DNA from: an uncultured Salinisphaerales bacterium
GTDB lineage: Bacteria; Pseudomonadota; Gammaproteobacteria; Nevskiales; CAJXLF01
Direction: 5' to 3'
NCBI GenBank assembly: GCA_913055805.1
Contig: CAJXLF010000006.1
Location: 127,735-191,734 of the forward strand
DNA length: 64,000 bases
Shown one piece after another: positions 22,136-44,982 of this stretch. The stretch's first letter is position 1. Each line of letters opens with the position of its first letter. A program made the position numbers and the translations under genes. The notes under the pieces were generated by a model. That model searched no databases. It saw only the letters and a program-made list of their open reading frames with translations, and had not been told where the DNA came from.

Positions 22136-24358
22136 TCAGGAATAGAAGCGCTGCTTTGCCTTGCCGCGCGCCTTGCTCATTTCCACCAGAATCGGTGCAG
22201 GTTCGAAGCGGCGACCATAGCGTTCAGCCAACTCGCCCATCCGTGTCACAAAAGCCTTGATTCCGACCTGATCGATAAAACGGAACGGGCCACCGGTGAA
22301 CGGCAGGAAGCCCAGGCCAAATACCGCACCGATATCCCCATGCATGGGCTCGGCCAGGATGCCGTCCCCCAGGCAATGAGCGGCTTCATTGGCGAACATA
22401 TAGATGCAACGTTCGGCGATTTCAGCCGGATCCATCCGTTTGTCAGGCTTCACGCCCATCGCTGCATAAAGTTCTTCATTGACGGGGCGCGGACCCTTCT
22501 TTTTCTGCTCATCGTAGATGTAGAAACCACGGCCGGTCTTGCGACCCAGCCAGTTCTTTTCCTGCATCATCTGCGAAGCATCCGGCAGCGCCATGCGCTC
22601 ACCGAAGCTGGCTTCCAGAATCGGCCCAACCTTGAGACCCACGTCGATACCCACTTCATCCATCAGGGTCACCGGGCCGATCGGAAGGCCGTAGTCCAGC
22701 AGGGCATTGTCGACATCCCGCACCGGCACACCCTCGCCCAGCAGGCGCGCGGCCTCATTCAGGTAAGGCGCCAGGATACGGGTGGTGTAGAAACCGGGAC
22801 CATCCTTCACCACGATCACGGTCTTGCCCTGGGCCTTGCCGAATGCCACACAGCTGGCTATCACTTCCGGAGAAGTTTTCTCCGTCGTGATGATTTCCAG
22901 CAGCGGCATCTTCTCGACCGGCGAGAAATAATGCAGACCAATCACGTTTTCCGGGCGTTTCGCTGCCTCGGCAATCTTCGTGACAGGAATGGAAGACGTG
23001 TTGGTTCCGAAGATGATGTCCTTGTTACCCAGGGCCTCGATGTCTTTCACCATCTGGTGCTTGAGCTCAACGCTCTCGAACACCGCCTCGATCACCAGGT
23101 CACAGGATTTGAAACCTGTGTAGTCGGTCGTCGTCGTGGTACGACTCAATTGACGACCGGCTGCCTGCGGCGTCAGCACCTTGCGGCTGACGCGTCGATC
23201 ATAGAACTTGTGCAGGTAATCCAGCCCAGCTGCCAACCCCTTGTCATCGCGGTCTTTCAGGCGCACATCGCAGTTCGCCTTTTCCACCGAGGTGAGCGCA
23301 ATACCAGCGCCCATCAGACCGGCGCCCAGCACACCCACTTTTTCAATATCGCGAGTCTTCACGCCCATCTGGACGAAGGTTTCCTTCTTCAGGGCTTCGG
23401 TCGCATGAAACAGGCTGCGCAGACCGGCCGACTGCGGCGTCATCGCCAGCTTGCCGAATTCGCGGGCCTCAGCAGCATAGCCGGCCTTGATACCCTTGCT
23501 GAAGCCTTCCTCAACCACATCGAGAATAGCCTCGGCGGCAGGATAGTTACCGCGGGTCTTGGACAGCGCTTGCTTGCGTGCTTGCTGAAACAGCAGCTTG
23601 CGACCCGCCGGGTTCTCTTCCAGCGCCAAACTCATCGCTTCTTCACGGATGTTCTGCAGACGGGAAGCAATATCGGGTTTGGCCTTCGGCGCCTTCGTCA
23701 GCTTCAATGCATGTTTGGCGGCAGCTTCCACCAGGATATCGGCCGGCACCACGGCATCGACCACACCAAGTTTCTTTGCCTGCGCCGGACGCAGCTGGCG
23801 TCCGGTCAACATCAGGTCGAGAGCCTTGGCAATCCCGATCAAGCGTGGCAACCGTTGCGTACCACCACCGGCGGGTAACAGGCCCAGCATCACTTCCGGC
23901 AGGCCCAAAGCTGTTTTCGAACTGTCAGCTGCAATTCGTGCATCACAGGCCAGCGCCAGTTCCAGACCCCCGCCCAGGCAGGCGCCATCGATGGCGGCCA
24001 CCACCGGAATTGGCAGATTTTCCAGCTGCTGCAGTGCCTGCTGGCATTCACGTGACAACGCAGAGACGTCTTCTGCTGTCTCCAGTTGGTCAAACATGTT
24101 GATGTCAGCGCCGGCGACGAAAGAACCCGGCTTGGTGGAACAGATCACCAGGCCCTTCAGGCCCTGCGCTGCACGCACCTCGTTCATGGCATCGTCGAAC
24201 TGTAGAGCGAATTCTTCCTTCAGTGTGTTCTGCTTGTCACCAGGAACATTGATCTCAATGACACCTACCTTGTCGTCGCGTACGTAAAAATTGAACGCGC
24301 TCTCAACAGTTGGCTCGCCCTGATATTCCAATTTCGCTGCCAGATTGCTCTTGCTCAT
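22136..24358 (-). CDS. fadJ: Fatty-acid oxidation multifunctional alpha subunit (FadJ/FadB type)
   Basis: Protein of 740 aa with enoyl-CoA hydratase and L-3-hydroxyacyl-CoA dehydrogenase activities of beta-oxidation. The N-terminal crotonase domain shows CSTKPGSFVAGADINMF, AAIDGACLGGGLELALACD and GLPEVMLGLLPAGGGTQRLPR as separate motifs. The NAD-binding domain begins VGVLGAGLMGAGIA, and the C-terminal dehydrogenase domain contains GLHYFSPVEKMPLLEI and the second helical repeat. The ATG at 24358 follows the thiolase stop by 4 bp; the longer in-frame start at 24409 lies inside the thiolase gene. The FadI-like partner upstream makes FadJ the better name than FadB. Confidence 0.9.
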   Translation of the reverse strand: MSKSNLAAKLEYQGEPTVESAFNFYVRDDKVGVIEINVPGDKQNTLKEEFALQFDDAMNEVRAAQGLKGLVICSTKPGSFVAGADINMFDQLETAEDVSALSRECQQALQQLENLPIPVVAAIDGACLGGGLELALACDARIAADSSKTALGLPEVMLGLLPAGGGTQRLPRLIGIAKALDLMLTGRQLRPAQAKKLGVVDAVVPADILVEAAAKHALKLTKAPKAKPDIASRLQNIREEAMSLALEENPAGRKLLFQQARKQALSKTRGNYPAAEAILDVVEEGFSKGIKAGYAAEAREFGKLAMTPQSAGLRSLFHATEALKKETFVQMGVKTRDIEKVGVLGAGLMGAGIALTSVEKANCDVRLKDRDDKGLAAGLDYLHKFYDRRVSRKVLTPQAAGRQLSRTTTTTDYTGFKSCDLVIEAVFESVELKHQMVKDIEALGNKDIIFGTNTSSIPVTKIAEAAKRPENVIGLHYFSPVEKMPLLEIITTEKTSPEVIASCVAFGKAQGKTVIVVKDGPGFYTTRILAPYLNEAARLLGEGVPVRDVDNALLDYGLPIGPVTLMDEVGIDVGLKVGPILEASFGERMALPDASQMMQEKNWLGRKTGRGFYIYDEQKKKGPRPVNEELYAAMGVKPDKRMDPAEIAERCIYMFANEAAHCLGDGILAEPMHGDIGAVFGLGFLPFTGGPFRFIDQVGIKAFVTRMGELAERYGRRFEPAPILVEMSKARGKAKQRFYS

Positions 24359-24362
24359 GGTT

Positions 24363-25679
24363 TTACTCCGATTCGATAACCATCGCAGCGCCAATGCCGC
24401 CGGCCGCACAGGCCGTCATCAGGGCCATTCCGCCCCCTCGACGTTTTAATTCATTCGCTGTCTGGCCGATGATGCGAGCACCGGTGGCGCCAAAAGGATG
24501 ACCGTAGGAAATTGAACCGCCGACAACATTCAGTTTGTCGCGATCAACTTCACCCACTGCCTTGCTACGACCGGCATGCCTGGCAAGATATTCCCTGGAA
24601 TCAAGGCCACGGATGTTGCAGGCAATCTGTGCCGCAAAGGCTTCATGCATATCGATCAGGGTCATGTCTTTCAGACTGACACCCGCACGATCCAGCGCCA
24701 CGGGTGCAGCCAGCACCGGCCCCATTAACAGATCTTCCTGCGGGCATCGTGCGGCAAAGGCCGATGAACGGATATAGGCAATCGGCTCATAGCCCATTGC
24801 CTTGGCCGTATCCTCGCTCATGAGAATCATGGCGGAGGCGCCATCTGTCAGCGGGCTGGCGTTGCCGGCCGTGACTGTGCCGTATTCACGGTCGAATACC
24901 GGCTTGAGCCTGGCATAACTGTCACGCTCGGAGTTATGACGCACCAGATTATCTTCATGCACCGCCCGCGACTTGCCGGCGCCATTCACGAATGCCGTCA
25001 TGACTTCCTTGTCCATCTTGCCGTCGGCCCAGGCCCTGGCGGCATTGCTGTGCGAGGCATGGGCAATGTCGTCCTGTTCCTCGCGGGTCACCCCCCAGGC
25101 CTTGGCCATGGCTTCGGCGCTCTGGCCCATGGTCTTGCCCGTGGAATATTCAGTAATGGATGGCGCCGTGGGAATCAGATCCTTCGGACGCAGTTTCGAC
25201 AGCAGTTTGATGCGCTCACCGGTGGTCTTGGCGAAGTTCACATCACGCAGCGTGGCTGAAAACTTCTCGGAAAGCGGGATACGCACGCTGGAAGTTGAAT
25301 CCACGCCGCCGGCGATGGCGATATCAGTCTCGCCCACGACAATGCTGTTGGCTGCGGTCGCCGCCGTCTGGAAGCTGGTGGCGCAGGCGCGGGTGATGGA
25401 ATAGGCATCGGTATAGGGGTTCATGCCGGTGGCCAGCACGATCTCACGGCCGATGAAGGGCGCGTCCGGCATCATGATGGTCTGGCCGAAAACCAGCTGC
25501 TCAACCTGTTGCGGATCGAGATCGCTGCGTGCCAGCAGTTCAGACACCAGCATGGCGCCCAGTTCGATCGGGTTCAGGTCACGGAAGTGCGTACCCATGC
25601 GGGCGAAGGGGGTGCGCAATGTCGAGACAATGGCGACCCGGCCATTCTTGCCCTTCATTTCGATGCGGTCTGATTTCAT
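24363..25679 (-). CDS. fadI: Acetyl-CoA C-acyltransferase (FadI-type thiolase)
   Basis: Protein of 438 aa, thiolase superfamily, closest in pattern and length to E. coli FadI (436 aa). It carries out the last step of beta-oxidation, 3-ketoacyl-CoA to acetyl-CoA plus shortened acyl-CoA. The nucleophilic Cys is in SITRACATSFQ. The catalytic His lies in IDMHEAFAAQ and the second Cys region in ACAAGGIGAAM, with GGSISYGHPFGATGAR before it. The start has AGAGGA 8 bp upstream. First gene of the fadIJ operon; a small palindrome overlaps a TATAAA box in its promoter region. Confidence 0.92.
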   Translation of the reverse strand: MKSDRIEMKGKNGRVAIVSTLRTPFARMGTHFRDLNPIELGAMLVSELLARSDLDPQQVEQLVFGQTIMMPDAPFIGREIVLATGMNPYTDAYSITRACATSFQTAATAANSIVVGETDIAIAGGVDSTSSVRIPLSEKFSATLRDVNFAKTTGERIKLLSKLRPKDLIPTAPSITEYSTGKTMGQSAEAMAKAWGVTREEQDDIAHASHSNAARAWADGKMDKEVMTAFVNGAGKSRAVHEDNLVRHNSERDSYARLKPVFDREYGTVTAGNASPLTDGASAMILMSEDTAKAMGYEPIAYIRSSAFAARCPQEDLLMGPVLAAPVALDRAGVSLKDMTLIDMHEAFAAQIACNIRGLDSREYLARHAGRSKAVGEVDRDKLNVVGGSISYGHPFGATGARIIGQTANELKRRGGGMALMTACAAGGIGAAMVIESE

Positions 25680-25742: not shown

Positions 25743-25764
25743 AGGCCGCCCTTGCGGGCGGCCT
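25743..25764 (-). terminator. Hairpin terminator of the VCBS gene
   Basis: Perfect 8-bp stem GGCCGCCC / GGGCGGCC with a 4-nt loop, about 14 bp after the stop codon of the VCBS gene. On the minus strand only a short T-rich tail (CCTTTCC) follows, so termination may be weak. Confidence 0.6.
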
Positions 25765-25777
25765 GCCCACTCAGCCC

Positions 25778-26932
25778 TTACTGCGAAATGTTTTTCACAA
25801 TCGATACATTGTTGGGTCCGGCTGCGGCCATATCCACGTCACCGTCTCCGTCCAGATCACCCAACGCCGGGGTCTGCGGAAAACCGGTCACACTCACGGC
25901 CAGCGGCGAGCCGAAGCTACCATCACCGTTGCCCGGGAAGACATTGACCTTGGCTTCACCTACCACGGCCTCGGCAATATCCAGATTGCCGTCACCATCG
26001 AAGTCCGCCAGCGCAACACTCACCGGTCCCAGTCCGCCAAACATGCGGTTCTGGCTGAAAATGGTCTGGAAACCACCCTGTCCGTCTGACAGCACCGCAG
26101 TGACGGTGAAGGAGAAGGAGTCAGCCGTGACCACGTCGTCGATACCGTCATTGTTGATATCGCCGGCGGTGCCGTCTTCAGGGATGAAGCCGACAATGCT
26201 GAAGCCGCTTTCGGCGAAGTTGCCGTTGCCGTCGCCCAGCAGCGCAATCACACGTTGCCCGAAACCATCGGTGGCAAGAATGTCGGCATTGCCGTCGTTA
26301 TTCAGGTTGGCGGGCTTGATGGAGGTCAGCGCGCCGGCCACGAAATTGAGCGACCCTGCACCGAAGGTGCCATCGCCATTGCCGATGTGAATCTGCAGAC
26401 CCCCCTGGGTCATGCCGACGATATCCGGTGTGCCGTCGTTATCCACGTCCATGGCAATCGCCTGCTGCTGGTAGGCAATCGGCATGTTGTGGGTCTGGAT
26501 TTCGGTAAAATTGCCGGCGCCATCCCCCTGCAGCACATGGATGATGAAGCCATCAAAGGCCAGCAGGTCGATATTGCCGTCACCGTTATGATCGGCGGCA
26601 TTGATCGCACCAACCGCCGCACCAATATTCACGACCTGCGCTGCACCGAAGACGCCATTGCCCTGGTTCTTCATCACACGCGGACCCTGGCCGAACTGGT
26701 CGGCAAGAATCAGGTCGATATCGCCATCATTGTCCACGTCCGCAGCTATGGTATTTTCCGGCGCCGGGCCAGGGCCTGAGGCGCTGCCCGTGGGATAGTT
26801 CACCGCGGATGCGAAGGCAATCCCCGTGCTACCGCCACCCTGCCACCAGTCCTGCCATCCGGCGCCCGCCTGGGCGCTCACCGCCAGCAAGCCGGCGGTC
26901 GCGGTACAAGTCATCGTCTGCTTAAAGTTCAT
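25778..26932 (-). CDS. Secreted FG-GAP/VCBS seven-repeat protein
   Basis: Protein of 384 aa. After a signal peptide (MNFKQTMTCTATAGLLAVSA), seven repeats of about 45-50 aa each carry a calcium loop of the D-x-D-x-D-G-x-x-D type: DVDNDGDID, DHNGDGNID, DVDNDGTPD, NLNNDGNAD, DINNDGIDD, DFDGDGNLD and DLDGDGDVD. Such FG-GAP repeats build a seven-bladed beta-propeller that binds calcium and often a glycan or protein partner. No catalytic domain or anchor is visible. The ATG at 26932 has GGAGGA 5 bp upstream. It follows the CocE-like gene by 90 bp on the same strand and may share its transcript. Confidence 0.82.
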   Translation of the reverse strand: MNFKQTMTCTATAGLLAVSAQAGAGWQDWWQGGGSTGIAFASAVNYPTGSASGPGPAPENTIAADVDNDGDIDLILADQFGQGPRVMKNQGNGVFGAAQVVNIGAAVGAINAADHNGDGNIDLLAFDGFIIHVLQGDGAGNFTEIQTHNMPIAYQQQAIAMDVDNDGTPDIVGMTQGGLQIHIGNGDGTFGAGSLNFVAGALTSIKPANLNNDGNADILATDGFGQRVIALLGDGNGNFAESGFSIVGFIPEDGTAGDINNDGIDDVVTADSFSFTVTAVLSDGQGGFQTIFSQNRMFGGLGPVSVALADFDGDGNLDIAEAVVGEAKVNVFPGNGDGSFGSPLAVSVTGFPQTPALGDLDGDGDVDMAAAGPNNVSIVKNISQ

Positions 26933-27022
26933 GTGATCCTCCATAGATCGCAAAAAGTGAAGACCTTGCGGTCAGTAACTCCTGCATTCATCCTTTTGTT
27001 ATTGAGTGATCCCCGGGCCCGC

Positions 27023-29002
27023 TTATTCCTGAATGTTCAGACTTTCGGCGGGAGCCACAGGTAATACGACGCTCGAAGGATGCTCGGCATCGTGATAAAT
27101 ATTGATCAGGCCGATCAGCGACTGCAGCAAGCTCGGCACCGGCATCAAGGCGAACGGCAGATTGCTCGGCCCGACGGCAATGCGCAGGCGATGGCCCTTT
27201 TTGATCAAGGCGCTGGTAGGAAAGATTTCCACCGGCACCTTGATAATGTTGCCGCTGCCGACCGGCTCAACCGACTCCACCGTGAAGGGATGCCAGGGCT
27301 GGATCATCTCGCCCTCCAGGTAACGCGACTTGCCTTCGTCAACCGCCCGTAGCGAAGCCGTTTGCAGACCGCTGGTCAGGGCGCGTGCTGTGCCACCGGG
27401 TTCAAGATCAGCCACACGCACCACCAGGCCGGCATCCAGTGCAGTAGTCGATATCCAGATATCGGCCTGAATCGGGCCGTTAATGTAGAAGTCCTCTTCC
27501 ATGACCGGTGTGTCGAAGGTCACTTCAAAGCTGTTAGTGAAATTGTCCTCGGTCCAGCAAGGCAGCGGCAGATAGGAAAACAGACCGATGGAAATCTGCA
27601 TGGCGCTTTCCGAGCACAGGCCATCGGCCGGCTGCTGCAGCATCATGCTGGGCGCAGCCGCACCGGCCGGCGCCTCGGCGCCAAGCACACCGCCACTTTG
27701 CAGATACCAACGCTCGGCGCGAGCCTGCGGATGTGGCCAGTCGCCCGGATAATCGAAATGCTCATGGCCCCACACCCACTGGGTGACGGCCGGCAGGTCT
27801 TCGGCGCCGTTTTCCATGCCTTTCAGGTAGTGGTCGAACCACTGCAGGGCCAGTTGATCCAGGGTTGGCACGCCATCCATGGGCAGGCCCTCACCTGTAG
27901 CAGCTTGAAGGTGATGCCAGGGACCGATCAGCAGTTTCGTCGTGGTGTGATTCTTCAGCGCCTCGTAGTTCAGGGGCTCACTACGCTGAAAGATGTCGAA
28001 CAAACCACCCACGATAAATGTCGGCGCAATAATCTTTTCCGAAACCTCGAGGGGCGCCTTGGTGCCCCAGTACTCATCGTCAAAGGAAGGTTCCTGCCCG
28101 GTCGCCACCTCCACCAGTTTCGGTGCAAAGAATTCGCTCAGTCCCGCCAGATGTTCAAGAATCGCCATCAGCTGCTGTTCCGGCTGATCGTAAAACGTGG
28201 GATTGAACACTCCGAGCCCTGTGACCACGGTCATCCATATGGGCAGAAAACCGATACTCGCCTGGCCGCCCACCATCACCACATCACGGTAAATGTCGCC
28301 ATGCGGCACGATCGGGAACACGGCCTTGATCGCCGGATGCCCGCTACTGGCGGCGAGAACTGATGTAGTGGCCGTGGCCGATATGCCCCACAGGCCCAGT
28401 TCGCCGTTGCTCCAGGGTTGCCCTATTATCCAGTCCATGACCTGCGTGTAATCGGCCTGTTCACGCGCGCTGAACGGATCCCAGGCGCCGCCGGAACGGC
28501 CGGTGCCACGCACATCGATCTGCACATGGTTATAACCACGCAGCACAAAGTAAGGCATGATGCCGCCGCCCAACGACACGTACTGCGTTACGTTCTTGTT
28601 GTAGGGCGTGAAGGTGACAATGGTGGGCAGCGGCCTTGACTCTGGCTCACCTGCATCCAGCTGGGGGCGCACCACCTGCAGTGAAATCACCACCCCGTCA
28701 TCCATCTGCAGCTGGATATTGTCTTCCAGCACCGTCGCCGCATATTCCGCCGGCCGGTCGTAATCCACCCAGCCCGGCGCCGTCTCACGGAGTCCCGCAG
28801 CTTTAACAATCGAAACATCCTGACGCATGCTCTGCGTACGTGTACCCAGGCTCGTCCATTGCGAGGCCGCCGTACTGCCGCCATCGCCAGATACCGGATT
28901 AGCCTGGGCGGAATCCTTACTGTCTCCGCCACAGGCAGCCACCGAAGCCAGCAATGCCAGGATGGAAATGGAAGCGACCGTTTTTTTAATCAACAGAATC
29001 AT
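27023..29002 (-). CDS. CocE/NonD (X-Pro dipeptidyl-peptidase-like) hydrolase lipoprotein
   Basis: Protein of 659 aa. The lipoprotein signal LLIKKTVASISILALLASVAACG ends in a lipobox Cys, so it is anchored in the envelope. The catalytic domain is alpha/beta hydrolase of the CocE/PepX type: TFTPYNKN, DVRGTGRSGGAWDPFS, the nucleophile elbow GLWGISATATT (Gly-x-Ser), and IGPWHHLQ with a late His. The C-terminal PepX jelly-roll (FTNSFEVTFDTPVMEEDF to VGPSNLPFA, in separate strands) is present. Known members cleave X-Pro peptides, cocaine esters or glutaryl amides. The ATG at 29002 lies 6 bp beyond the beta-helix gene stop, with GGAG upstream; the two are one operon. Confidence 0.86.
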   Translation of the reverse strand: MILLIKKTVASISILALLASVAACGGDSKDSAQANPVSGDGGSTAASQWTSLGTRTQSMRQDVSIVKAAGLRETAPGWVDYDRPAEYAATVLEDNIQLQMDDGVVISLQVVRPQLDAGEPESRPLPTIVTFTPYNKNVTQYVSLGGGIMPYFVLRGYNHVQIDVRGTGRSGGAWDPFSAREQADYTQVMDWIIGQPWSNGELGLWGISATATTSVLAASSGHPAIKAVFPIVPHGDIYRDVVMVGGQASIGFLPIWMTVVTGLGVFNPTFYDQPEQQLMAILEHLAGLSEFFAPKLVEVATGQEPSFDDEYWGTKAPLEVSEKIIAPTFIVGGLFDIFQRSEPLNYEALKNHTTTKLLIGPWHHLQAATGEGLPMDGVPTLDQLALQWFDHYLKGMENGAEDLPAVTQWVWGHEHFDYPGDWPHPQARAERWYLQSGGVLGAEAPAGAAAPSMMLQQPADGLCSESAMQISIGLFSYLPLPCWTEDNFTNSFEVTFDTPVMEEDFYINGPIQADIWISTTALDAGLVVRVADLEPGGTARALTSGLQTASLRAVDEGKSRYLEGEMIQPWHPFTVESVEPVGSGNIIKVPVEIFPTSALIKKGHRLRIAVGPSNLPFALMPVPSLLQSLIGLINIYHDAEHPSSVVLPVAPAESLNIQE

Positions 29003-29007
29003 GCTTT

Positions 29008-30975
29008 CTACTCCGAACACACTGCGGGCCTGCTGCCCAGTGCGTGACTCGCGTCTACAGAATCGGGAAGGGTTTGAGAGACTTTGTCTGGATCAGGGCC
29101 ACCAGGCTGCCCCCACCAGTTGCGCTGCATGCTGGCCACGAAACCTTCGTTCTGCACGTCGTTCTGCTCACCACCCAGTATGCAATTGCCGCCTGTGCTG
29201 GCCAGCGCGCCACCACCAAAATCGATGCGCGCTTCCTCCACTTCGCCCAGATATATCTTGCGAAAAAGCACCGCGTTACCGCCCGCACGACTGAAATCAC
29301 TGTCCTGGATTTTTATATCCAGTTGGCGAAGATTGCCGATTACGCCGACCACCACGTTGTTGGCGGAATTGTCGATAAAGGCGGTGTTGCGCACATCGAC
29401 CTCCATGCGTCCGTCGGTACCCAGTGGGTCTGATAACAGTGGCTGCGCAGTCAGGGCGTGCAACAGCGCACCCGGATTCTGCAGAGCCGAAAGCAAGTTG
29501 AGTGGATCCAGCGTGAGAGGGAATGTCGTCGCTGTCGCCAGCAGTTCGGTGAGTACCGGTGTGGTGGTCAGTGCGGTCAGCAGATTGGTCATCAGGTTTG
29601 CGCCGCTCAGCACGGACAGACCGTTGTTACAGCCCGAAAACTCGCTGTCGCGAATGCGCAGGATAGTGGTGTTATCCGTGCCGGTACTGCCCATGAGCAG
29701 GCATTCGCCCAGGTTAAAGGGCAGGCCACCCGCATCCGGGTCCCCGCCCCGCTCATGGGTGTCCTTCACCGTGACGTTGTCGATGTCCAGGATCATGGTC
29801 GAGCCGCTACCCAGATTGGCCTGCTCGAACATGTCGCCCGGGTTGTCTTCGAAGTAACTGTTGCTCAGGGTGACCTCGGCATGGCCGTTGCCGTTACTGA
29901 TGATCAGTTCCATGCCGTTACAGGAAAAACCGCCGATGCCGTGGGCAAAGCGATTGCGGTCGATATCCCAGATGGCGGTACCGCTGTCTGCCACATTCAG
30001 GAAAAGCCCCTCGCAATCCGCCCCCGGGGCTCCGATATAGGTCTGTGTATTGTTGACCGATTTCGCTTCCAGCCTCGCTGTGCCCGTCACCTGCGTGGTG
30101 ATGGCATGGACCAGATGCAGTTCCTCGGTCTGATGCAGCGGACCATGCTTGAGCTGCGTTACAAAGTTGCCGGAAATGTCAGCCAGATAATCAGCATCAC
30201 CAAACAGCCGCAGATCGATACCGTTGCCACAAGCGCTGTCATGCACATAGTTATCGCTGATTTCGACGGCACCGCTACCACTGTCCGCATCCACCATGAT
30301 GCCGGCCCAGCCGGCAGGCAGTAGCAGGGGAATGCCGATGTAGGGTCCCGTGGTGGGCGCCGGAAATGGCCGCACACTGAAGCCAATCGCACAGGCTGTG
30401 TTGTAGCCGGAAACATCATTGCCACGGACCCTGGCGCCGGGCACATTCATGCCGTAGATGGCGCCACGGCTGGCCTGGGTGATGACCAGGTTGCTCACTT
30501 CGCTGCCTGCGGCCAACTGCACCGCATCACCCTGGTGATTCAGCGCACTGCTGTTGCGGATGCGCGGCAGGGCCGTCCTTTCTGCTGCACCGGCGACCGC
30601 TTCATTACGACGCTGCAACAACACATCGGGCCCCGCCCCGATCAGGCGCTGATTCGGCTTGAGTGCAATACCCCCGTCCAACGGCGGTATATCCAGTGGC
30701 GCGGGCAACACCACCAGGGCATCGCCGGGCGCTGATGCCGCCTGCAATGCCTGCAGCGAATCGAATGGCGCCTGGCGGCTGCCATCCCCACCCGGCGCCG
30801 CCGTAGCACTGACATATAACGCACGGCCCGAAGCTGAACCCAGGTTACGTCCGGCGTCACTCGCCGATGGTGAATCCGAAGACCCCCCACAGGCGCAAAG
30901 CAGCATCCCCAGAACCAGGATTGCACCCTGGCTGCCGAGTTTCCTGTGCTGTTCCCGCTGCCGATTTCCCGACAT
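29008..30975 (-). CDS. Right-handed beta-helix lipoprotein
   Basis: Protein of 655 aa from the ATG at 30975 (657 from an ATG at 30981). The signal ends in VLGMLLCACGG, a lipobox. The mature N terminus, ALYVSATAAPGGDGSRQAPF, is the DUF1565-like entrance of pectate-lyase-type parallel beta-helices. A long series of Asn/Asp-rich turns follows (for example EISDNYVHDSACGNGIDLR, DIDRNRFAHG, VTLSNSYFEDN, DVRNTAFIDNSANN), as in solenoid rungs. A hydrophobic helical interruption, about residues 455-515, breaks the helix. No catalytic lyase residues can be assigned. First gene of the exported-protein operon, preceded by two TetR-type operators. Confidence 0.78.
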   Translation of the reverse strand: MSGNRQREQHRKLGSQGAILVLGMLLCACGGSSDSPSASDAGRNLGSASGRALYVSATAAPGGDGSRQAPFDSLQALQAASAPGDALVVLPAPLDIPPLDGGIALKPNQRLIGAGPDVLLQRRNEAVAGAAERTALPRIRNSSALNHQGDAVQLAAGSEVSNLVITQASRGAIYGMNVPGARVRGNDVSGYNTACAIGFSVRPFPAPTTGPYIGIPLLLPAGWAGIMVDADSGSGAVEISDNYVHDSACGNGIDLRLFGDADYLADISGNFVTQLKHGPLHQTEELHLVHAITTQVTGTARLEAKSVNNTQTYIGAPGADCEGLFLNVADSGTAIWDIDRNRFAHGIGGFSCNGMELIISNGNGHAEVTLSNSYFEDNPGDMFEQANLGSGSTMILDIDNVTVKDTHERGGDPDAGGLPFNLGECLLMGSTGTDNTTILRIRDSEFSGCNNGLSVLSGANLMTNLLTALTTTPVLTELLATATTFPLTLDPLNLLSALQNPGALLHALTAQPLLSDPLGTDGRMEVDVRNTAFIDNSANNVVVGVIGNLRQLDIKIQDSDFSRAGGNAVLFRKIYLGEVEEARIDFGGGALASTGGNCILGGEQNDVQNEGFVASMQRNWWGQPGGPDPDKVSQTLPDSVDASHALGSRPAVCSE

Positions 30976-30987
30976 ATCCATCCGTTA

Positions 30988-31005
30988 AGTATCCACTTGT
31001 ATACT
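30988..31005. promoter_or_regulatory. TetR-type operator, copy 1
   Basis: Matches the symmetric pattern AGTATnCAnnTGnATACT. It lies 12 bp before the beta-helix gene start and shares all symmetric positions with copy 2, whose equivalent base is 22 bp away (two helical turns). Confidence 0.72.
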
Positions 31006-31009
31006 CAAA

Positions 31010-31027
31010 AGTATCCAACTGTATACT
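31010..31027. promoter_or_regulatory. TetR-type operator, copy 2
   Basis: Second copy of AGTATnCAnnTGnATACT. It abuts the -35 region of the divergent TetR gene, whose TATAAT is at 31044-31049. Two dimers on one DNA face could bind cooperatively. Confidence 0.72.
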
Positions 31028-31043
31028 TCCTGTCAAGAGCCGC

Positions 31044-31049
31044 TATAAT
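31044..31049 (+). promoter_or_regulatory. -10 box TATAAT of the TetR gene (leaderless layout)
   Basis: A perfect TATAAT ends 6 bp before the start codon at 31056, so transcription should begin at or next to the A of the ATG. No Shine-Dalgarno can fit. The -35 position (about 31021-31026, GTATAC) is poor and lies inside operator copy 2. Confidence 0.6.
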
Positions 31050-31055
31050 GTCCGC

Positions 31056-31697
31056 ATGAGTGTTCAGGCGGAAAAGATCAGTGAAGTCAAAGCGGCCCTG
31101 CCGGACGGCAAGCGCCGCCTGCTGGACGCCGCGCTGAAACTGGCGGCCCAGGGCACGGGCTTCGGCTCACTGGGTATTCGCGAACTCGCCCGTGAAGCCG
31201 GCCTCAACCACAACACCTTCTACCGGCACTTCTCCGACCTGGAGGATCTGGCCCGGAGCGTCGCCCAGGAACTGGCTGACAATTTCATGGCCAGCATGAA
31301 ACGTGTAAGAGCGGAATCCGCCAAGCACGCCGATGCCACTGTCGGCGCCGCCGAACTGATCCTTGAGCAAGTGCGCAAGGATCCCGCACCCTTCGTGGTG
31401 GGATTACGGGAATTACACGGCGGCTCTCCTGAAATCCGCCACATGCTCAGGGGCGTGCTTGAAGATATCGCCCAGCAAAGCGTCGAGCAGATCAGCAGCA
31501 TGAATCTGGCCCCGGGACTTACAGAAAAATACATCTACCAGGTCACCCGACCGGTCACCTACTACATGCTGTACAAGGCCGTTGAATGCCTGGATGAGCC
31601 CGAGCGACGTGACCGTATCGCAGAGGAAATTGTCAGCTTCATTCGTCAGCAGTTCCTCGGCGCTTATGCCCTGCAGGACATGGAAGGCCATAGCTGA
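31056..31697 (+). CDS. TetR-family regulator, FabR/DesT-like DNA-binding domain
   Basis: Protein of 213 aa. The DNA-binding domain reads GKRRLLDAALKLAAQG, then SLGIRELAREAGLNHNTFYRHFSDLEDL, here quoted in part; the REVAREAG-x-FYRHF style resembles FabR and DesT, regulators of unsaturated fatty-acid genes. The symmetric operator AGTATnCAnnTGnATACT is also of the FabR/DesT type in layout. The ligand is unknown. It is divergent from the beta-helix/CocE/VCBS operon and likely represses both it and itself. The ATG at 31056 is chosen because the upstream frame overlaps the operators and the divergent gene. Confidence 0.86.
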   Translation: MSVQAEKISEVKAALPDGKRRLLDAALKLAAQGTGFGSLGIRELAREAGLNHNTFYRHFSDLEDLARSVAQELADNFMASMKRVRAESAKHADATVGAAELILEQVRKDPAPFVVGLRELHGGSPEIRHMLRGVLEDIAQQSVEQISSMNLAPGLTEKYIYQVTRPVTYYMLYKAVECLDEPERRDRIAEEIVSFIRQQFLGAYALQDMEGHS

Positions 31698-37563: not shown

Positions 37564-38151
37564 ATGATCGACATGAACAGATTCAGGCAGGAATCAGGCT
37601 TCACTCTCGTTGAGTTGTTCATTGCCGTTACGGTAATGGCCTTGTTGCTTTCGGTCGGCATTCCCTCATTTCAGGCAACCGTTAACAACAACCGGCGCAC
37701 CGCTCAGGTCAATGAGTTCGTGACCAGCTTGACTCTGGCAAGAAGTGAGGCACTCAAACGCGGCAATGCGGTCACCGTTTGCCGTGCCTCCAACTTTTCA
37801 GCCGCCGTTCCCACCTGCGGAAACGGCAATGGCTGGGAAGACGGTTGGGTCGTCTTCAATGACGAAAATGGTGACGGCTCCCCCAACAATGCCATTGATG
37901 TGCTGCGCCTGAGCGAGCCGGTCCAGGGCAACAATATTACGCTTCGGGGCGAGGCAAACGTGGCCACAAGGGTGCTCTATGCCGCTACCGGCCGGGTTGG
38001 CGCGCCCACTGCGGGTAACGCCACCATCGGGAATATTGTCTGGTGTGACGCCCGGGGTGCTGGTGACAACGCACGCGTTATCAACATAGCCGCCACCGGC
38101 AGGATCACGACCACTGCCGGCAACGCAGGCACCAACTGTACACCGCCATGA
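37564..38151 (+). CDS. fimT: Minor pseudopilin, GspH/FimT type
   Basis: Protein of 195 aa. The prepilin signal is RFRQESG/FTLVELFIAVTV, cut by prepilin peptidase after Gly, with Glu at +5, then one N-terminal helix. The GspH/FimT domain follows, with cysteines and the turn GNGWEDGWVVFNDENGDG. Minor pilins of this type prime pilus assembly and, in FimT relatives, bind DNA for uptake. An in-frame ATG at 37573 is an equally possible start. First gene of the operon; its stop overlaps the pilV start. Confidence 0.88.
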   Translation: MIDMNRFRQESGFTLVELFIAVTVMALLLSVGIPSFQATVNNNRRTAQVNEFVTSLTLARSEALKRGNAVTVCRASNFSAAVPTCGNGNGWEDGWVVFNDENGDGSPNNAIDVLRLSEPVQGNNITLRGEANVATRVLYAATGRVGAPTAGNATIGNIVWCDARGAGDNARVINIAATGRITTTAGNAGTNCTPP

Positions 38152-38738
38152 TGACGCATCGATCACCCCCTCTTCCCAAGCAGTCCGGCTTCACCCTGAT
38201 AGAAGTGCTGATCGCGATCGTAGTTCTTTCAATCGGGCTGATGGGCATCGCCGCCATGCAGTTTGTCGGCCTGCGGGACAGCAACCGCTCCAACGAGCGC
38301 AGCCTGGCAACCGTGCTTGCCTACGACATCGTTGACCGCATGCGCGCCAACATCCAGGGAGCCATTGACGGTCAATATGCAGTTACTGCAGGTACTGCGC
38401 CCGACACCCCCACAGTCGGCGGAGGCGCCTCTCCGCATGATTACTGCAAAACCGATTTCACCAATACAACCGTCGCGAACATCTGCAGAAGCGACGAAAT
38501 GGCCGCCGCCGACCTGTTCGACTGGTACACCACGGTACAGAACAGCTTACCCGGCGGGCTGGGGCAGATTGCCTGTGCCGATGCCGATGGCGGTGTGGAC
38601 GGTGATGATTGCACGCAGGGCTCGGTTTACACCATCACCATCATGTGGGATGACGAGCGCAGTGGTGATACCGGCACCGGATGTGACCCCGATGATCCCG
38701 ATGACCTGCTCTGCCTGACCATCACGACCGAGATATAA
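38148..38738 (+). CDS. pilV: Type IV pilus minor pilin PilV
   Basis: Protein of 196 aa. The prepilin site QSG/FTLIEVLIAIVVLSIGLMG includes the PilV-type hydrophobic helix (N-methylation site and Glu5). The globular part contains NRSNERSLATVLAYDIVDRMRAN, in which YDxxDRMRAN is characteristic of PilV. It overlaps the preceding stop by 4 bp (translational coupling), and pilW starts 2 bp after it. Together with PilW and PilX it forms the tip complex under PilY1. Confidence 0.9.
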   Translation: MMTHRSPPLPKQSGFTLIEVLIAIVVLSIGLMGIAAMQFVGLRDSNRSNERSLATVLAYDIVDRMRANIQGAIDGQYAVTAGTAPDTPTVGGGASPHDYCKTDFTNTTVANICRSDEMAAADLFDWYTTVQNSLPGGLGQIACADADGGVDGDDCTQGSVYTITIMWDDERSGDTGTGCDPDDPDDLLCLTITTEI

Positions 38739-38740
38739 CC

Positions 38741-39472
38741 ATGTCAGGCCTTTACTGCCCCAGAATCCATCGCCAGTCCGGCTTCTCACTGATCGAACTG
38801 ATGATTGCCATGCTGATAGGGCTCTTTCTGCTGTTTGGTGTTGTGCAGATATTCATGGGCAGCCGGCTGACCTACCAGGCGCACGAGGGCATCGGCCGCA
38901 TTCAGGAAAATGGCCGCTTTGCCATTGAAATCATGAGCCGGCAGGTCAGAATGGCCGGTTTTCGGTCCCAGCCCCTATCGGGCACCAGTCTTGCCGCCGT
39001 CAATGGCCGCAACAACGTCGCAGCAGGTGGTACGGACAACGCCCTGGCCGGCACAGACAAGCTCATCCTGGTCTACCAGGGAGCTACAGACGGCGGCACT
39101 ACCAACTGCCTGGGCAATGCCGTAACCGCGAATGCCACCACCACTGTGGTATTCCTGGTCGATGCCAACCGAACCCTGCGCTGCGCTGTCGACCCGGCAA
39201 ACATTGATGAGGCCGTTGGGCAACCCATCCTGGAAGGCGTCAGCGATATGCAACTGCTTTTCGGCGAACAAACAATCGACAGCTCAACTAATCCACCCAC
39301 CCGCAGTTACCGCTACGTTACAGCCAACAACGTGACCACCTGGGGTAGTGTCATCAGCGTTCGCATCCAGCTGTCCGTAGATAGCGTGGAAACCTTCAAT
39401 CCCGATTTGCCGGATGACGGGCGGCTGGCTCTGCCCTATTCCACCACGGTCACGATCCGGAATCGCACCTGA
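38741..39472 (+). CDS. pilW: Type IV pilus minor pilin PilW
   Basis: Protein of 243 aa. The prepilin signal is RQSG/FSLIELMIAMLIGLF, and the PilW segment HEGIGRIQENGRFAIEIMSRQ follows, quoted here in its key part (GRxQENGRFAxE). The rest is a beta-rich globular domain with a Cys pair (TNCLG ... LRCAV). It is required for pilus tip assembly. It lies 2 bp after pilV and 8 bp before pilX. Confidence 0.9.
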   Translation: MSGLYCPRIHRQSGFSLIELMIAMLIGLFLLFGVVQIFMGSRLTYQAHEGIGRIQENGRFAIEIMSRQVRMAGFRSQPLSGTSLAAVNGRNNVAAGGTDNALAGTDKLILVYQGATDGGTTNCLGNAVTANATTTVVFLVDANRTLRCAVDPANIDEAVGQPILEGVSDMQLLFGEQTIDSSTNPPTRSYRYVTANNVTTWGSVISVRIQLSVDSVETFNPDLPDDGRLALPYSTTVTIRNRT

Positions 39473-39480
39473 GGAATGCC

Positions 39481-40098
39481 ATGAAAACTACAGGGCGTAA
39501 CACACAACAGGGTTCTGTGCTGATCGTCAGCCTGATTTTCCTTGTTGTACTGACTCTGCTGGGTATCGCGAGCGTGCGCTCCACCTCCATCCAGGAGCGC
39601 ATGGCTTTCAATACCCGCGAGCAGAACCTGGCATTCCAGGCGGCCGAAGCCGCATTGCGTGATGGCGAACTTTGGCTATTGGCGCAAATCGGGAATAGCC
39701 AACCCCCGGGCACCCAGGCCTCCTGTGCATCCAACTGCTATTCCGTACCGGTCTGGGCGCCGAACACCCCGGCCAGCTCGATGGCAGGTCATACACAGGC
39801 CTGGTGGGCGGCCAACGGAAGGCAACACGGGCAGGACACCGCCGGTGCCGATACGGCCAACCTCAGTGCAGATCTGCATGCGGCCCAACCGTATTACATC
39901 ATTCAGCAGGTCAACACAGCCGGCATGCTCAACACCAGACCGGGTTCACTGACCCAGGGCTTCAGCTATGGCACCGGCGGACCGTATTACTACCAGGTAT
40001 CGGCCTACGGTGTCGGCAGAACCTCTTACGTAGACGGCGGCAATACCCGGCATTTCGACGTCGTGCTGCAAAGCCTGTTCTCAATACCCGCATTTTGA
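39481..40098 (+). CDS. pilX: Type IV pilus assembly protein PilX
   Basis: Protein of 205 aa. The N terminus NTQQG/SVLIVSLIFLVVLTLLG is the PilX N-domain: a pilin-like helix with Ser instead of Phe at +1 and no Glu5, as in PilX. It is followed by TSIQERMAFNTREQNLAFQAAEAAL-type helix, of which the key part is ERMAxNxREQxLAFQAAEAAL. It forms a minor component of the priming complex with PilV, PilW and PilY1. It is read directly before pilY1. Confidence 0.9.
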   Translation: MKTTGRNTQQGSVLIVSLIFLVVLTLLGIASVRSTSIQERMAFNTREQNLAFQAAEAALRDGELWLLAQIGNSQPPGTQASCASNCYSVPVWAPNTPASSMAGHTQAWWAANGRQHGQDTAGADTANLSADLHAAQPYYIIQQVNTAGMLNTRPGSLTQGFSYGTGGPYYYQVSAYGVGRTSYVDGGNTRHFDVVLQSLFSIPAF

Positions 40099-40123
40099 GT
40101 AACAGGATGACATGGAGACAGTC

Positions 40124-43100
40124 ATGAAAAACACCCGATTTATCATAGTGATGGCGATGAGCTTCTGTTTCGCCAGACTGGCCATGGCAGCACCGCTGGA
40201 CCTGAGTAACGTACCCCTGTTCGCCGCCACCAACGCACCACCGGCCAATATTCTGTTTGTGTTCGATGACTCCGGCAGTATGGACTGGGGCACGGTAACA
40301 GACCAGGAAAGTGGCACCTTCCACTTCTCCTGCGTTAACGGCAGTAACGATGGCAGAAACTATGTCTACCCTCATGACTCGGGCGGAAACAACTACAGCG
40401 AAACCAGTGTTAACGGGGGCAGAATACCCACCGATGAAGTCGTCAACGCCGTTTCTTCCGGCAATAACGATGGCGTACAACCCAACCAGGGTTTCTGGCG
40501 GGCCTGGAACACTGATTACAACCGCCTCTATTACGATCCGGAAGTACAATATTTACCCTGGCGGGGCGAAGATGATGACGGCCAGGCCTACACCAACGCC
40601 ACAGCTTCTGCCGCACGGGTCAACCCCTACGACCATGACGGTTCCACTTACAATCTGACGACCAATCAGTCGCATGATTCCTACATTCCCTGTACTTACG
40701 ACGATGAAGTCACGGTCACGTTCTTTCCTGCTCGCTATTACACCTGGACAGATTCGGATAATGATGGCGAAGTCGACCCTGACGACAGCCATCAACTGAT
40801 AGAAATCCGCAGCTCGGGTTGTAGTAGCGGGGCCAGTTGTCCAGCCTCCTTCACCAGAGGCGAGAATCGTGAAGACTGTGCCGCCATTGAAGACGGCACC
40901 GGCGATCAATGTACCGTCGCTGAAGAACTGCAAAACTTCGCCAACTGGTTCCAGTATTACCGGCGCCGGGAGTTCACTGCCAAGGGCGCCTATACCTTTG
41001 TTGTCGATGATGCCGGTGCAGTCAACATGGGCCTGTTCACCATTAACAGCAATGCTGACAACGAACGCCTGTCCCTGATGAGCGTCGACGCCAACAAGAC
41101 GAGCCTGTTGGACGCCCTGTCCAAGATAAATGCCACGGGCGGCACACCCCTGCGGGAAAGTGCCTATGACGGCTACAGATACCTTTCATGCCAGTCGAAC
41201 AACTACTTCAGCGTGAACAGCGATTCCGATTGCCCACAGGCCAGTGCCGCCGAAGGCGGTGCCTGCCAGCAAAGCTTCCTGGTGGCGATGACTGATGGCT
41301 ACTACTACGGTGGCTTCGACCTGCCCGGTAACGCCACTCAGGATAATGCCGACGGCAATGATGACAGCCAATGGGACGGCGGACCCTATGCAGACCAACA
41401 ACAGGACACCATGGCGGACATTGCCATGATGTTCTATGAAGAGGACATATCCGGGCCCGGCGACTACTACAATCATCCCAACATACTTCCGGTGATTCTT
41501 GGCATTGACGAAGCAAGGCACCAGCACGTGGTCACCTACAGCGTGGCTTTCGGCGTCAACGGCACACTGGACGCGATGCCCGGACCTAACGTTGATGGTA
41601 ACAATTACTGGCCAGACCCGGATGAGAGTACGGATTCCGCCATTCCGGAAAAAATTGATGATCTCCGCCATGCCGCCTTCAATGGCCGGGGGCTGTTCCT
41701 GAACGCCAGCAGCCCTAACCAACTGGTTGAGGCCTTGTCCGATGCCATTCTTTCCATCGGCGACCGTGCAAGTTCGGCGGCTTCGGTGGCACTCAATTCC
41801 AGCAGCCTGAACAGCGGCTCTCATGTTTTCCAGGCACGCTTTGACAGCGGTGACTGGAGCGGCCAGTTGCTCTCCTTCCCGATTTCGGACGGCTCCGGAC
41901 AGCAGGCTGGCTGCAGCGGTGTGTCACTCGGTGAACTCTGCAATCTGGCCTGGGATGCAGGTGAAGTACTCAAAGGGCAGAACTGGAACAATGGCCGGGA
42001 AATCATCACGATCGATCCTACCACCAATACGACGGGTATCCCCTTTGTATGGGATGACCTGGAGAACTCGCAGAAACTGGATCTGCGCAAGCATCCCGAT
42101 AGCGGCAACCAAAATAATGTAAACAATGGCAAACGCCGCTGGCGCTTCATTCGTGGCCGGGAGTATCCCAACAGAAACGACTTCCGCCTGCGCAGCAGCC
42201 CGCTCGGTGATATCGTGAACTCCGACCCGTTCTTTGTCGGCGCACCACAGTTCCCCTACACGTTTAACAGCTACGCCTCCTTCCGCAGCGCCAATGCCAA
42301 TCGCCGCCGCATGGTCTACGTAGGCGCCAACGACGGCATGTTACATGCCTTTGACGAGAATACAGGCGAGGAACTTCTTGCATATATCCCTGGCGACCGT
42401 CGCATCTATGACAACCTGACTACACTGGCCTCTCTCACCTATTCAACCAAGCACAGCTACTTCGTTGACGGCTCCCCGACAGTCGGCGACGTTTACTCAG
42501 GCACCAACGGTACGACCTGGAAAACTGTTCTGGTCAGCGGACTGCGCGCCGGCGGACAGTCGATCTTTGCACTGGACGTGACCAACCCGGAGCCCGCCAA
42601 CTTCAATGAAAGCAATGCCGACAGCCTGGTACTGTGGGAATTCTCGGACGAAGACGACAAGGATCTGGGCTTCACCTACAGTCAGCCGAACATCGTACGC
42701 ATGGCCAACGGCAAGTGGGCTGCCGTGATCGGCAATGGCTACAACAACAGTGATGGCAGCGGCAATGAAACAGCCGCCACCACCAGCACTACCGGCAAAG
42801 GCTACCTATTCATTATTTACATAGATGGGCCGGGTGCCGACGGCGTGTGGGATCTCGGCACGGATTACGTCAAGATCGAAGTCAACTCGGGTTCCGTTGG
42901 CACGCCCAACGGGCTGGCCACACCAGCGGCAGTAGACAAAGACGGCGACTACGACATTGACGTCATTTATGCCGGCGACCTGAACGGTAACATGTGGCGA
43001 TTCAATGTAAGCGATCCCACCCCGGCCAACTGGGTCGTTGCTTACAGCGGCCAACCGCTATTCGTGGCCCGGGACGCAAGCAATAACCGACAGCCCATCA

Positions 43101-43858
43101 CTGTACGCCCTGAGGTCTCTCCACATCCTTATGGCACTGCCAGTGGCTACATGGTGCTGTTTGGCACTGGCCGATACATAGACGCTGGCGACAATGCAAC
43201 AACCGGCACGCAGACCCAGACCTTCTACGGTATCTGGGACCAGAATCTGGTTAACAACACCAACACCATACCGACCCGCGCCAGTGGCCTGGTGCAACAG
43301 CAGATCAAGAAGGAAGTGGATCTGGGCGGTGGCAGTTGTGGTGATGGCGAAGACTGCTTCCGCATCGTAACGGATAATGCCGTGGACCTGACCGACGGCA
43401 ATGACCGCGGCTGGTATCTGGATCTCTACAACACGGAGAACAACAACACCACAAACTTCGGCGAGAAAGCTGTCAGTAATCCTATCATCCGTGCCGGGCG
43501 CATCGTATTCACTACCCTCATTCCTTCCGGTGAAGTCTGTGAATTCGGCGGTGACGGTTGGTTGATGGAGCTCAATTTCTCCACCGGCGGACCACCTCTG
43601 GAAGCCTCGATTGACGTCGACGGCGACGGAGATGTGGATGAGCACGATGTGATCACCGTAAACATAGACGGTACTGACGTGACCGTGCCCCCGGGCGGCC
43701 AGCTGTCTGATGTCGGTATTATTCCCAGACCCACCATTCTGGTCGTACCCGGTCTTGGGCAGGAAAAGAAATACACCAGTGGCTCCACGGGCGATATCGG
43801 CATCATCACCGAACGAGGCTTTGACGAAGGTCGCCTGAACTGGCGGGAAATCCGTTGA
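40124..43858 (+). CDS. pilY1: PilY1, pilus tip adhesin and mechanosensor
   Basis: Protein of 1244 aa. A signal peptide ([20 protein letters not shown]) is followed by a von Willebrand A-like N-terminal half with a MIDAS-type DDSGSMDWG. The C-terminal half is the PilY1 beta-propeller ([20 protein letters not shown], then GDPxxG-like loops), containing the calcium loop DKDGDYDID. PilY1 promotes pilus extension, adhesion and surface sensing. The ATG at 40124 has GGAG 6 bp upstream and gives the standard signal. An in-frame ATG at 40112 with AGGA is a second choice. Several further Asp-rich loops suggest extra calcium sites. Confidence 0.92.
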
Positions 43859-43893
43859 CCACCGGCACCTCAGTGACAGGAAAGGAAGAGACC

Positions 43894-44355
43894 ATGCCTA
43901 AGCATATGAAGGGCTTCACCCTGCTGGAACTGATGATCACGGTGATCATCATCGGCATATTGGCCAGTATTGCTTACCCCATCTATGCCGATTACCTGAC
44001 CAGATCCCGACGCGCAGACGGATTCGGCGCCATACAGCAATTCGCCGGCGCCATGGAAAGGTACTACACCGTTAACGGCAGCTATCTGGGCGCCGCCGCA
44101 AGCACCCCCCTACCCGCTGCACCTATAGTTCCGGGCACCTTCATGAAGGCCACCGCGCCCCTCGATGGCAATGACGTTTATTACAACCTGACTATTCAGG
44201 CGGCCACCGCTACGACTTTCACCCTGCGAGCCACACCGGTGAATGCCCAGGCTGGCGACGGCATTATCGAGATCACGCACACAGGCCGGCGCGGCTGGGA
44301 TCAGAATAACGACGGTGACACCACAGATGCCGGCGAGGACGACTGGCAGAAATAA
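43894..44355 (+). CDS. pilE: Type IV minor pilin PilE
   Basis: Protein of 153 aa. The prepilin site is [22 protein letters not shown] with Glu5, then [19 protein letters not shown], as in PilE of the Pseudomonas minor pilin cluster. The protein has no cysteine at all, so it lacks the usual pilin disulphide. Its C terminus instead has a calcium-loop-like acidic stretch, [16 protein letters not shown]. The ATG at 43894 has AGGAAGAG upstream; an earlier in-frame ATG at 43855 overlaps the pilY1 stop and gives no signal. It is separated by 78 bp from the second fimT, which has its own promoter. Confidence 0.88.
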
Positions 44356-44374
44356 CCCGCTCGACTGGAGCCAC

Positions 44375-44404
44375 TTGAAATCGGCCGAACCCGTCCTGTA
44401 TAAA
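44375..44404 (+). promoter_or_regulatory. Sigma-70 promoter for the second fimT
   Basis: The -35 TTGAAA (44375-44380), an 18-bp spacer and TATAAA (44399-44404) as -10 lie between pilE and the second fimT. The leader would be about 22 nt. Confidence 0.65.
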
Positions 44405-44433
44405 CTCAGAATCACAAAAATAAGAGTTAAAAC

Positions 44434-44982
44434 ATGCGCAACAACAACGGATACACGTTGTTGGAGTTGTTGGTGACTGTCGCGGTCGCTACCACTCTGG
44501 CAACGGTCGGGCTGCCCCGAATGAACACGTTTATTCTGAATAATCTCAGAGCTGCCGAGGTGAACGAATTCATCGCTACCATGGCATACGCACGCAGCGA
44601 AGCACTGAAACGTGGATATCGCGTCAGCCTTTGCAGGACAGCGGATAATGCCGCCCCGCTACCGACCTGTGGCACCGGCAATGGCTGGGAAGACGGCTGG
44701 ATCGTTTTCCGCGACGAAAACAGGAACAATCAACCCGATTCCGGCGCTGATATCCTGCTGGTTCACGAAGCACTCCACGCAAATACCACATTGCGTGGGG
44801 ATACCAATGTAGCAACCCGGATCAGTTACGCGCCCAGTGGTCGCACGGCAGCCACGTTCGGTAACCTTGTGCGCTGTGATGAGCGCGGCCATTTGCAGTC
44901 GAGAGTCATTACCTTCCCGCTCAGTGGCCGCGTCAGAACATCCCCCGGCGAAGCCGATACCGACTGCACACCCTTAAACTAA
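44434..44982 (+). CDS. Second GspH/FimT-type pseudopilin
   Basis: Protein of 182 aa. The prepilin-like start MRNNNG/YTLLELLVTVAVATTLA has Tyr at +1 in place of Phe but keeps Glu5. The GspH domain shows AEVNEFIATMAYARSEALKRG and GNGWEDGWIVFRDENRN, close to the first fimT in this window, so the two are paralogues. FimT/FimU-type proteins act in pilus priming or DNA uptake. It is preceded by its own -35/-10 pair. The last 9 bp overlap the convergent ThiO-type gene. Confidence 0.85.
   Translation: MRNNNGYTLLELLVTVAVATTLATVGLPRMNTFILNNLRAAEVNEFIATMAYARSEALKRGYRVSLCRTADNAAPLPTCGTGNGWEDGWIVFRDENRNNQPDSGADILLVHEALHANTTLRGDTNVATRISYAPSGRTAATFGNLVRCDERGHLQSRVITFPLSGRVRTSPGEADTDCTPLN

Follow-up and report, generated by a model that had tools for sequence, protein, structure and literature searches.

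A TetR-associated locus for an exported CocE-family hydrolase, a predicted beta-helix lipoprotein and a VCBS protein in an uncultured Nevskiales bacterium

Gene organization of the locus

We analysed a 64,000-nucleotide stretch of contig CAJXLF010000006.1 from an uncultured Salinisphaerales bacterium (hereafter the window) and describe here a small locus in it (positions 25778–31697) that encodes three exported proteins and a regulator. Three genes lie in a row on the minus strand. The first encodes BH, a predicted right-handed beta-helix lipoprotein (29008–30981; 657 amino acids, lipobox LCAC↓G). It is followed by the gene for CocE, a lipoprotein hydrolase of the CocE/NonD (S15) family (27023–29002; 659 amino acids, lipobox VAAC↓G), and by that for VCBS, a secreted FG-GAP/VCBS protein (25778–26932; 384 amino acids, seven repeats) with a signal peptide ending in SAQA. 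A gene for a FabR/DesT-like repressor of the TetR family (31056–31697, plus strand; 213 amino acids) diverges from BH. The 75 bp gap between TetR and BH contains two 16 bp palindromes spaced 22 bp apart: operator 1, GTATCCACTTGTATAC, at 30989–31004 and operator 2, GTATCCAACTGTATAC, at 31011–31026. An initial annotation of the same DNA had reported this set of two lipoproteins, one seven-repeat protein, a divergent TetR gene and two operators, and all of them are present where it had placed them.

The genes for BH and CocE are closely spaced, as that annotation had noted, but the gap measures 5 bp and not 6 bp, and use of an alternative GTG start would make the two genes overlap. VCBS sits 90 bp beyond CocE, and we infer that co-transcription extends across this gap.

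The CocE hydrolase

CocE matches both Pfam domains of its family (PF02129, E = 1e-47; PF08530, E = 5e-27) and scores 247.3 bits against the NCBIfam model TIGR00976, above the cut-off of 66.3. The alignment with cocaine esterase (PDB entry 3i2j, E = 4e-34) spans the whole protein. The residues Ser208, Asp336 and His364 align with the catalytic triad of that enzyme and Tyr134 with its oxyanion tyrosine, and all four are conserved in the orthologues, which suggests that CocE is a serine–histidine–aspartate ester hydrolase. The lipoboxes of CocE and BH, read directly in the translations, have a residue other than Asp at position +2, and both proteins are therefore predicted to be directed to the outer membrane. 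The proteins of the module may also be exposed at the surface.

The CocE/S15 family also includes alpha-amino ester hydrolases and acylases, and TetR regulators often sense toxic compounds. CocE could thus hydrolyse or detoxify an amide or ester xenobiotic or antibiotic, as the cephalosporin and alpha-amino ester hydrolases do, with TetR sensing the compound. We regard this as improbable, given that cocaine esterase is a far better match to CocE than the amino ester hydrolases are, that there is no efflux pump at the locus and that the conserved BH and VCBS proteins would have no role in simple detoxification.

The BH and VCBS proteins

BH falls below the cut-off of the Pfam Beta_helix family, and a sequence search of the PDB returned no relative above noise. 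Its N-terminal opening, YVSA..GGDGS...PF.SL..A..PGDT, is one that we take to resemble those of many beta-helix proteins. The AlphaFold model, from five sequences, is a right-handed beta-helix in which short strands stack into a solenoid (predicted template-modelling score, pTM, 0.73), and we assign this fold with moderate confidence. Structural comparison of the model with VIA-align gave Z scores of 24–26 for the alginate epimerases AlgE4 and AlgE6, tailspikes, RbmB and NosD, and of about 23–26 (up to 25.8) for the wider set that includes PL6 lyases and PfbA. Because this fold is common to epimerases and lyases, tailspikes, NosD and the adhesin PfbA, it does not decide between an enzyme and a scaffold. 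We note that the BH protein of the window carries a hydrophobic, predicted helical insertion of some 50–60 residues (LLTALTTTPVL...LLHALTAQPLL; residues ~455–515, positions 29440–29620), which is absent from the Solimonas copies.

VCBS belongs to PF13517 (E = 6e-36). Seven calcium loops had been counted in it; six of these are strict DxDxDG-type loops, while the seventh, NLNNDGNAD, deviates in having Asn as its first residue. The AlphaFold model is an all-beta, propeller-like structure with seven blades (pTM 0.82). Foldseek places Psathyrella and Agrocybe lectins among the best solved matches to the model, and fungal lectins are also the closest by sequence.

These resemblances give rise to the main rival to the interpretation that we develop below, namely that the locus is a polysaccharide-active module in which BH is a lyase, epimerase or hydrolase, with CocE as the deacylase and VCBS as a lectin-like binder of the glycan, the whole degrading or remodelling an acylated surface or environmental polysaccharide. 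The shared fold of BH with AlgE4/AlgE6, RbmB, tailspikes and PL6 lyases, its invariant acids and histidines (Asp256, Asp322, Glu324, Glu358, His247 and His347) and the similarity of VCBS, in sequence and model, to propeller lectins that bind N-acetylglucosamine are all consistent with such a role. However, the same fold occurs in the non-enzymes NosD and PfbA, and sequence searches with BH hit neither a CAZy-type family nor a solved enzyme above noise. Comparison with the alginate epimerase, PL6 and GH136 enzymes gave matches in fold but none to their sequence families, nor did we recognise a known catalytic motif. Furthermore, we recognised neither a sugar transporter nor a glycoside hydrolase among the genes of the module, and the class of the regulator and the gene contexts of BH, both described below, point to hydrophobic molecules. 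On balance, we consider a polysaccharide substrate unlikely.

Conservation and gene linkage

Homologues of all four genes are adjacent in four Solimonas genomes: those of Solimonas sp. SE-A11 and S. fluminis HR-BB, a metagenome-assembled genome (MAG) and a fourth (G080), which is placed in Solimonas by a shared genus label alone. The order there is TetR, CocE, BH, VCBS, with CocE and BH exchanged in comparison with the window; the CocE stop codon overlaps the BH start. In a Nevskia MAG, a single 8.5 kb stretch holds a CocE relative (35% identity), an AraC gene, VCBS, an exported hydrolase-like gene and BH. The four-gene neighbourhood has been kept across two families while the gene order was rearranged, and the set is passed on as a group in a few related bacteria from water and soil. 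The hydrolase-like gene, just upstream of BH in this MAG (L039:8073-9875), encodes a 600-residue exported protein with a GHSMGG motif and no Pfam match.

BH is found in seven of the 85 Nevskiales genomes, and the same seven carry an orthologue of VCBS (E < 1e-78). The probability that the two sets would be identical by chance is 2e-10 if the genomes are treated as independent and 7.5e-4 if only genera are counted. Beyond the order, BH was detected in one of 369 genomes of the class and one of 398 of the phylum, in both cases the genome of the window itself; at most three candidates were scored per genome, and distant copies could be missed. A scan of 84,980 species with two BH peptide patterns returned five hits, all in Nevskiales.

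It had been proposed that the grouping would prove accidental if the homologues were not neighbours elsewhere. VCBS does lie 90 bp apart from its neighbour, the gene order differs between genera, and in one genome (G057) BH and VCBS are both present though unlinked, with VCBS on another contig. A chance grouping of unrelated exported genes is nevertheless scarcely credible, and we reject it: the genes lie together in five further genomes from two genera, the operators are conserved, BH and VCBS have identical phyletic distributions, and the CocE and BH reading frames overlap in Solimonas.

The orthologues of CocE form a distinct class, scoring 931–982 bits against 701 for the next best match, and occur in the genome of the window, the four Solimonas genomes and one further genome (G006). 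The last of these has the TetR–CocE pair and tandem operators and lacks BH and VCBS. The core unit is therefore TetR plus CocE, which BH and VCBS do not always accompany.

A second BH copy, 58–65% identical, is present elsewhere in the genome of the window (L021:11349-13172; C8:111348-113171). It adjoins a DUF1302 protein and a 492-residue lipoprotein without a Pfam family, and CocE-like and peptidase-like lipoproteins are encoded within 9 kb. Both this copy and the BH copy of G057 adjoin DUF1302 or DUF1302/DUF1329 genes, families that we take to be associated with the handling of hydrophobic substrates.

The regulator and its operators

TetR matches PF00440 (E = 4e-10). It scores 61.8 bits against the NCBIfam FabR model (NF008402), below the cut-off of 151, and its closest solved structure is that of DesT (PDB entry 3lsj, E = 3e-16). 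It is thus FabR/DesT-like, as had been suggested, without being FabR.

A good promoter for BH, CocE and possibly VCBS, TTGACA-N17-TACTTT, was identified by direct reading and by script on the minus strand (31008–31036; -35 box at 31036–31031, -10 box at 31013–31008), and TTGACA or TTGACG occurs at the equivalent spot in the relatives compared. Operator 2 lies inside the spacer of this promoter and overlaps its -10 box. A generic promoter and terminator scan gave nothing beyond chance and did not call the BH promoter, as it requires a closer -10 box. On the plus strand, the TetR -10 box TATAAT (31044–31049) is 6 nt ahead of the ATG, and the distance is about 6–9 nt in most relatives (gaps of L033, L034 and L104–L106); the TetR mRNA may therefore be leaderless.

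The operator pattern GTATnCAnnTGnATAC was searched through the genome of the window (3.38 Mb) and two Solimonas genomes (G018 and G052), with the reversed pattern as a control. It has exactly two matches in each genome, always within the TetR gap, against a chance expectation of about 0.08 matches in a genome, or 2e-6 in a 75 bp gap; the reversed pattern has none in any of the three. As the matches lie at the TetR gap alone, a wider regulon for the exact pattern is ruled out in these genomes. The same operator pair is kept in two further Solimonas genomes (G080 and G081) and, with variation, in G006.

In their extended forms, AGTATCCACTTGTATACT and AGTATCCAACTGTATACT, the operators fit an AG...CA-nn-TG...CT palindrome at a divergent promoter, which is also the form of the FabR site AGCGTACACGTGTTCGCT (PMC4273635). 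Given this form, and with DesT as the nearest relative of known structure, TetR is likely to repress the BH promoter. DesT and FabR sense acyl-CoA or acyl-ACP (PMC4273635), and by analogy a fatty-acyl ligand for TetR is plausible. TetR had been described as a dedicated regulator of all three exported proteins. The sign of such control is the conserved operator, which covers the promoter that serves the first gene; for the set as a whole, of which TetR–CocE is the core, the description is less well supported.

In a maximum-likelihood tree the module TetRs form one clade of eight rows (support 100/99). A nearby clade holds five TetRs (L105–L109), each divergent from a Baeyer–Villiger-type monooxygenase (BVMO) gene behind similar tandem palindromes. 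Most of these monooxygenase genes are followed by a short-chain dehydrogenase (SDR) gene, and the exact BVMO signature FxGxxxHxxxWD is present in four of the five. CocE paralogues in the genome of the window adjoin flavin monooxygenases, and in Solimonas, and there only, a BVMO gene lies about 3–6 kb from the module. Because the sister TetRs face such operons behind similar operators, the natural reading of this context is ketone or ester catabolism; conversion of a ketone to an ester by a monooxygenase, with hydrolysis by an esterase after it, is an established pathway that is documented, for instance, in bacteria that degrade alkanes (PMC6304351). We also note that a FabR/DesT-like TetR facing BVMO genes with paired palindromes seems to recur in Nevskiales as a type of regulon.

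The same regulator could instead indicate membrane-lipid or envelope homeostasis, in which TetR would sense the acyl-CoA pool and tune exported proteins whose targets are the envelope lipids of the cell itself. The similarity to DesT and FabR as acyl-CoA/acyl-ACP sensors (PMC4273635), together with a divergent layout and site class like those of desT–desB and fabR–desA, would be in keeping with this. We think it quite unlikely, however: so rare a module (seven of 85 genomes) is unlike core lipid control, the operators are confined to the module locus in the three genomes examined, and the monooxygenase–dehydrogenase operons faced by the sister TetRs look catabolic.

Flanking sequence

A hairpin, GGCCGCCC-GCAA-GGGCGGCC, followed by TTTCC lies 3' of VCBS (25744–25763, minus strand). 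It was read directly and scored under the threshold in the terminator scan; tentatively, it is a possible end of the operon ahead of fadI. Directly downstream past the hairpin, on the same strand, is a fadJ-like and fadI-like beta-oxidation pair (22136–25679), which was not seen beside the module in Solimonas. The GC content of the module (0.58–0.60) equals that of the rest of the window, and composition therefore gives no support to horizontal acquisition. Elsewhere in the window (37564–44982), type IV pilin-like minor pilins flank a 1248-residue PilY1-like protein, as recognised by eye.

Proposed function

The locus had been viewed as a module for either surface degradation or surface assembly. 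In our view, the gene set is best read as an exported degradation module, and nothing favours assembly over degradation. In the scheme that we propose, an envelope-located ester hydrolase and two substrate-handling helpers are repressed by TetR and induced by acyl-CoA from the pathway itself. Without inducer, TetR bound to the two tandem palindromes would lie across both the structural-gene promoter and its own -35 region. The CocE lipoprotein, directed to the outer membrane, would cut an external hydrophobic ester within the envelope, and the released acid would be taken up and activated to acyl-CoA, which would bind TetR and free the promoter. BH and VCBS would assist CocE by binding or holding the substrate, or its carrier matrix, or by presenting it to the enzyme. 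The scheme builds on features that are observed directly, namely the linkage of the four genes, the operators and their overlap with the promoter, the catalytic residues of CocE and the export signals. Repression and ligand class are argued here by analogy with FabR and DesT, and the ester chemistry from CocE and the Baeyer–Villiger association; the helper roles are those that we would assign to BH and VCBS. We put the chances of the scheme as a whole at about even.

Several observations weigh against it. The similarity of TetR to FabR and DesT is far under the family cut-off. BH, with its lyase- or epimerase-like fold, could itself be catalytic. The Nevskia cluster has an AraC regulator instead of TetR and a CocE at just 35% identity, so that neither the regulation nor the CocE subtype is fixed. 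The BVMO signature does not occur anywhere in the window, and since CocE is exported while Baeyer–Villiger enzymes are cytosolic, they need not share a substrate molecule. A bolder version of the scheme, in which CocE, BH and VCBS would form one stable outer-membrane complex and the beta-helix would dock or channel an insoluble ester to CocE as a new type of surface ester-processing machine, seems doubtful to us.

If the proposed function is correct, two uncharacterised exported partners have been added to a well-known hydrolase family, and a fatty-acid-type repressor has been tied to extracellular ester use. The operators apparently occur at a single site in every genome searched, which makes the substrate tractable to find, as a reporter for a single promoter would name the inducer. 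The module could also lead to enzymes that act on insoluble esters or polyesters.

Comparison with known systems

The initial annotation did not recognise the locus as a described system, and we likewise found none in the literature searched, which contained no paper on this gene combination or on CocE with Baeyer–Villiger genes under TetR. Every protein is of a known family and the regulator–enzyme pair is of a known kind; what was not found there is the recurrent joining of this pair by a beta-helix lipoprotein and a calcium propeller.

With DesT of P. aeruginosa and FabR of E. coli, the locus shares a divergent gene pair and 18 bp palindromes of the AG...CA-nn-TG...CT type. It differs from both in having two tandem operators and in that the target is an exported hydrolase and not a desaturase or fab gene. 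CocE resembles other CocE/NonD (MEROPS S15-like) hydrolases in its Peptidase_S15 and PepX_C domains, the positions of its triad and oxyanion tyrosine and its full-length match to PDB entries 1ju3 and 3i2j. It differs in being an exported lipoprotein, in having Ala (GISATA) rather than Tyr (GVSYLG) after the nucleophilic Ser, and in its TetR partner and its BH and VCBS neighbours. The predicted fold of BH is that of AlgE4/AlgE6, RbmB, PL6 lyases, NosD, PfbA and tailspikes, from which BH is set apart by the lack of a sequence match to a solved structure or a known catalytic motif, by being a lipoprotein and by its confinement to a few Nevskiales. VCBS has the seven calcium-loop repeats and, in its model, the propeller of FG-GAP/VCBS proteins such as integrin alpha and PVL lectin; in contrast to these it is a stand-alone secreted protein whose ortholog group is tied to BH. 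Finally, the likeness to Baeyer–Villiger and esterase catabolism lies in the sister TetRs with tandem operators at BVMO(-SDR) genes, the CocE paralogues beside flavin monooxygenases and the nearby BVMO gene in Solimonas, while the module differs from such operons in that its hydrolase is exported and its window holds no monooxygenase.

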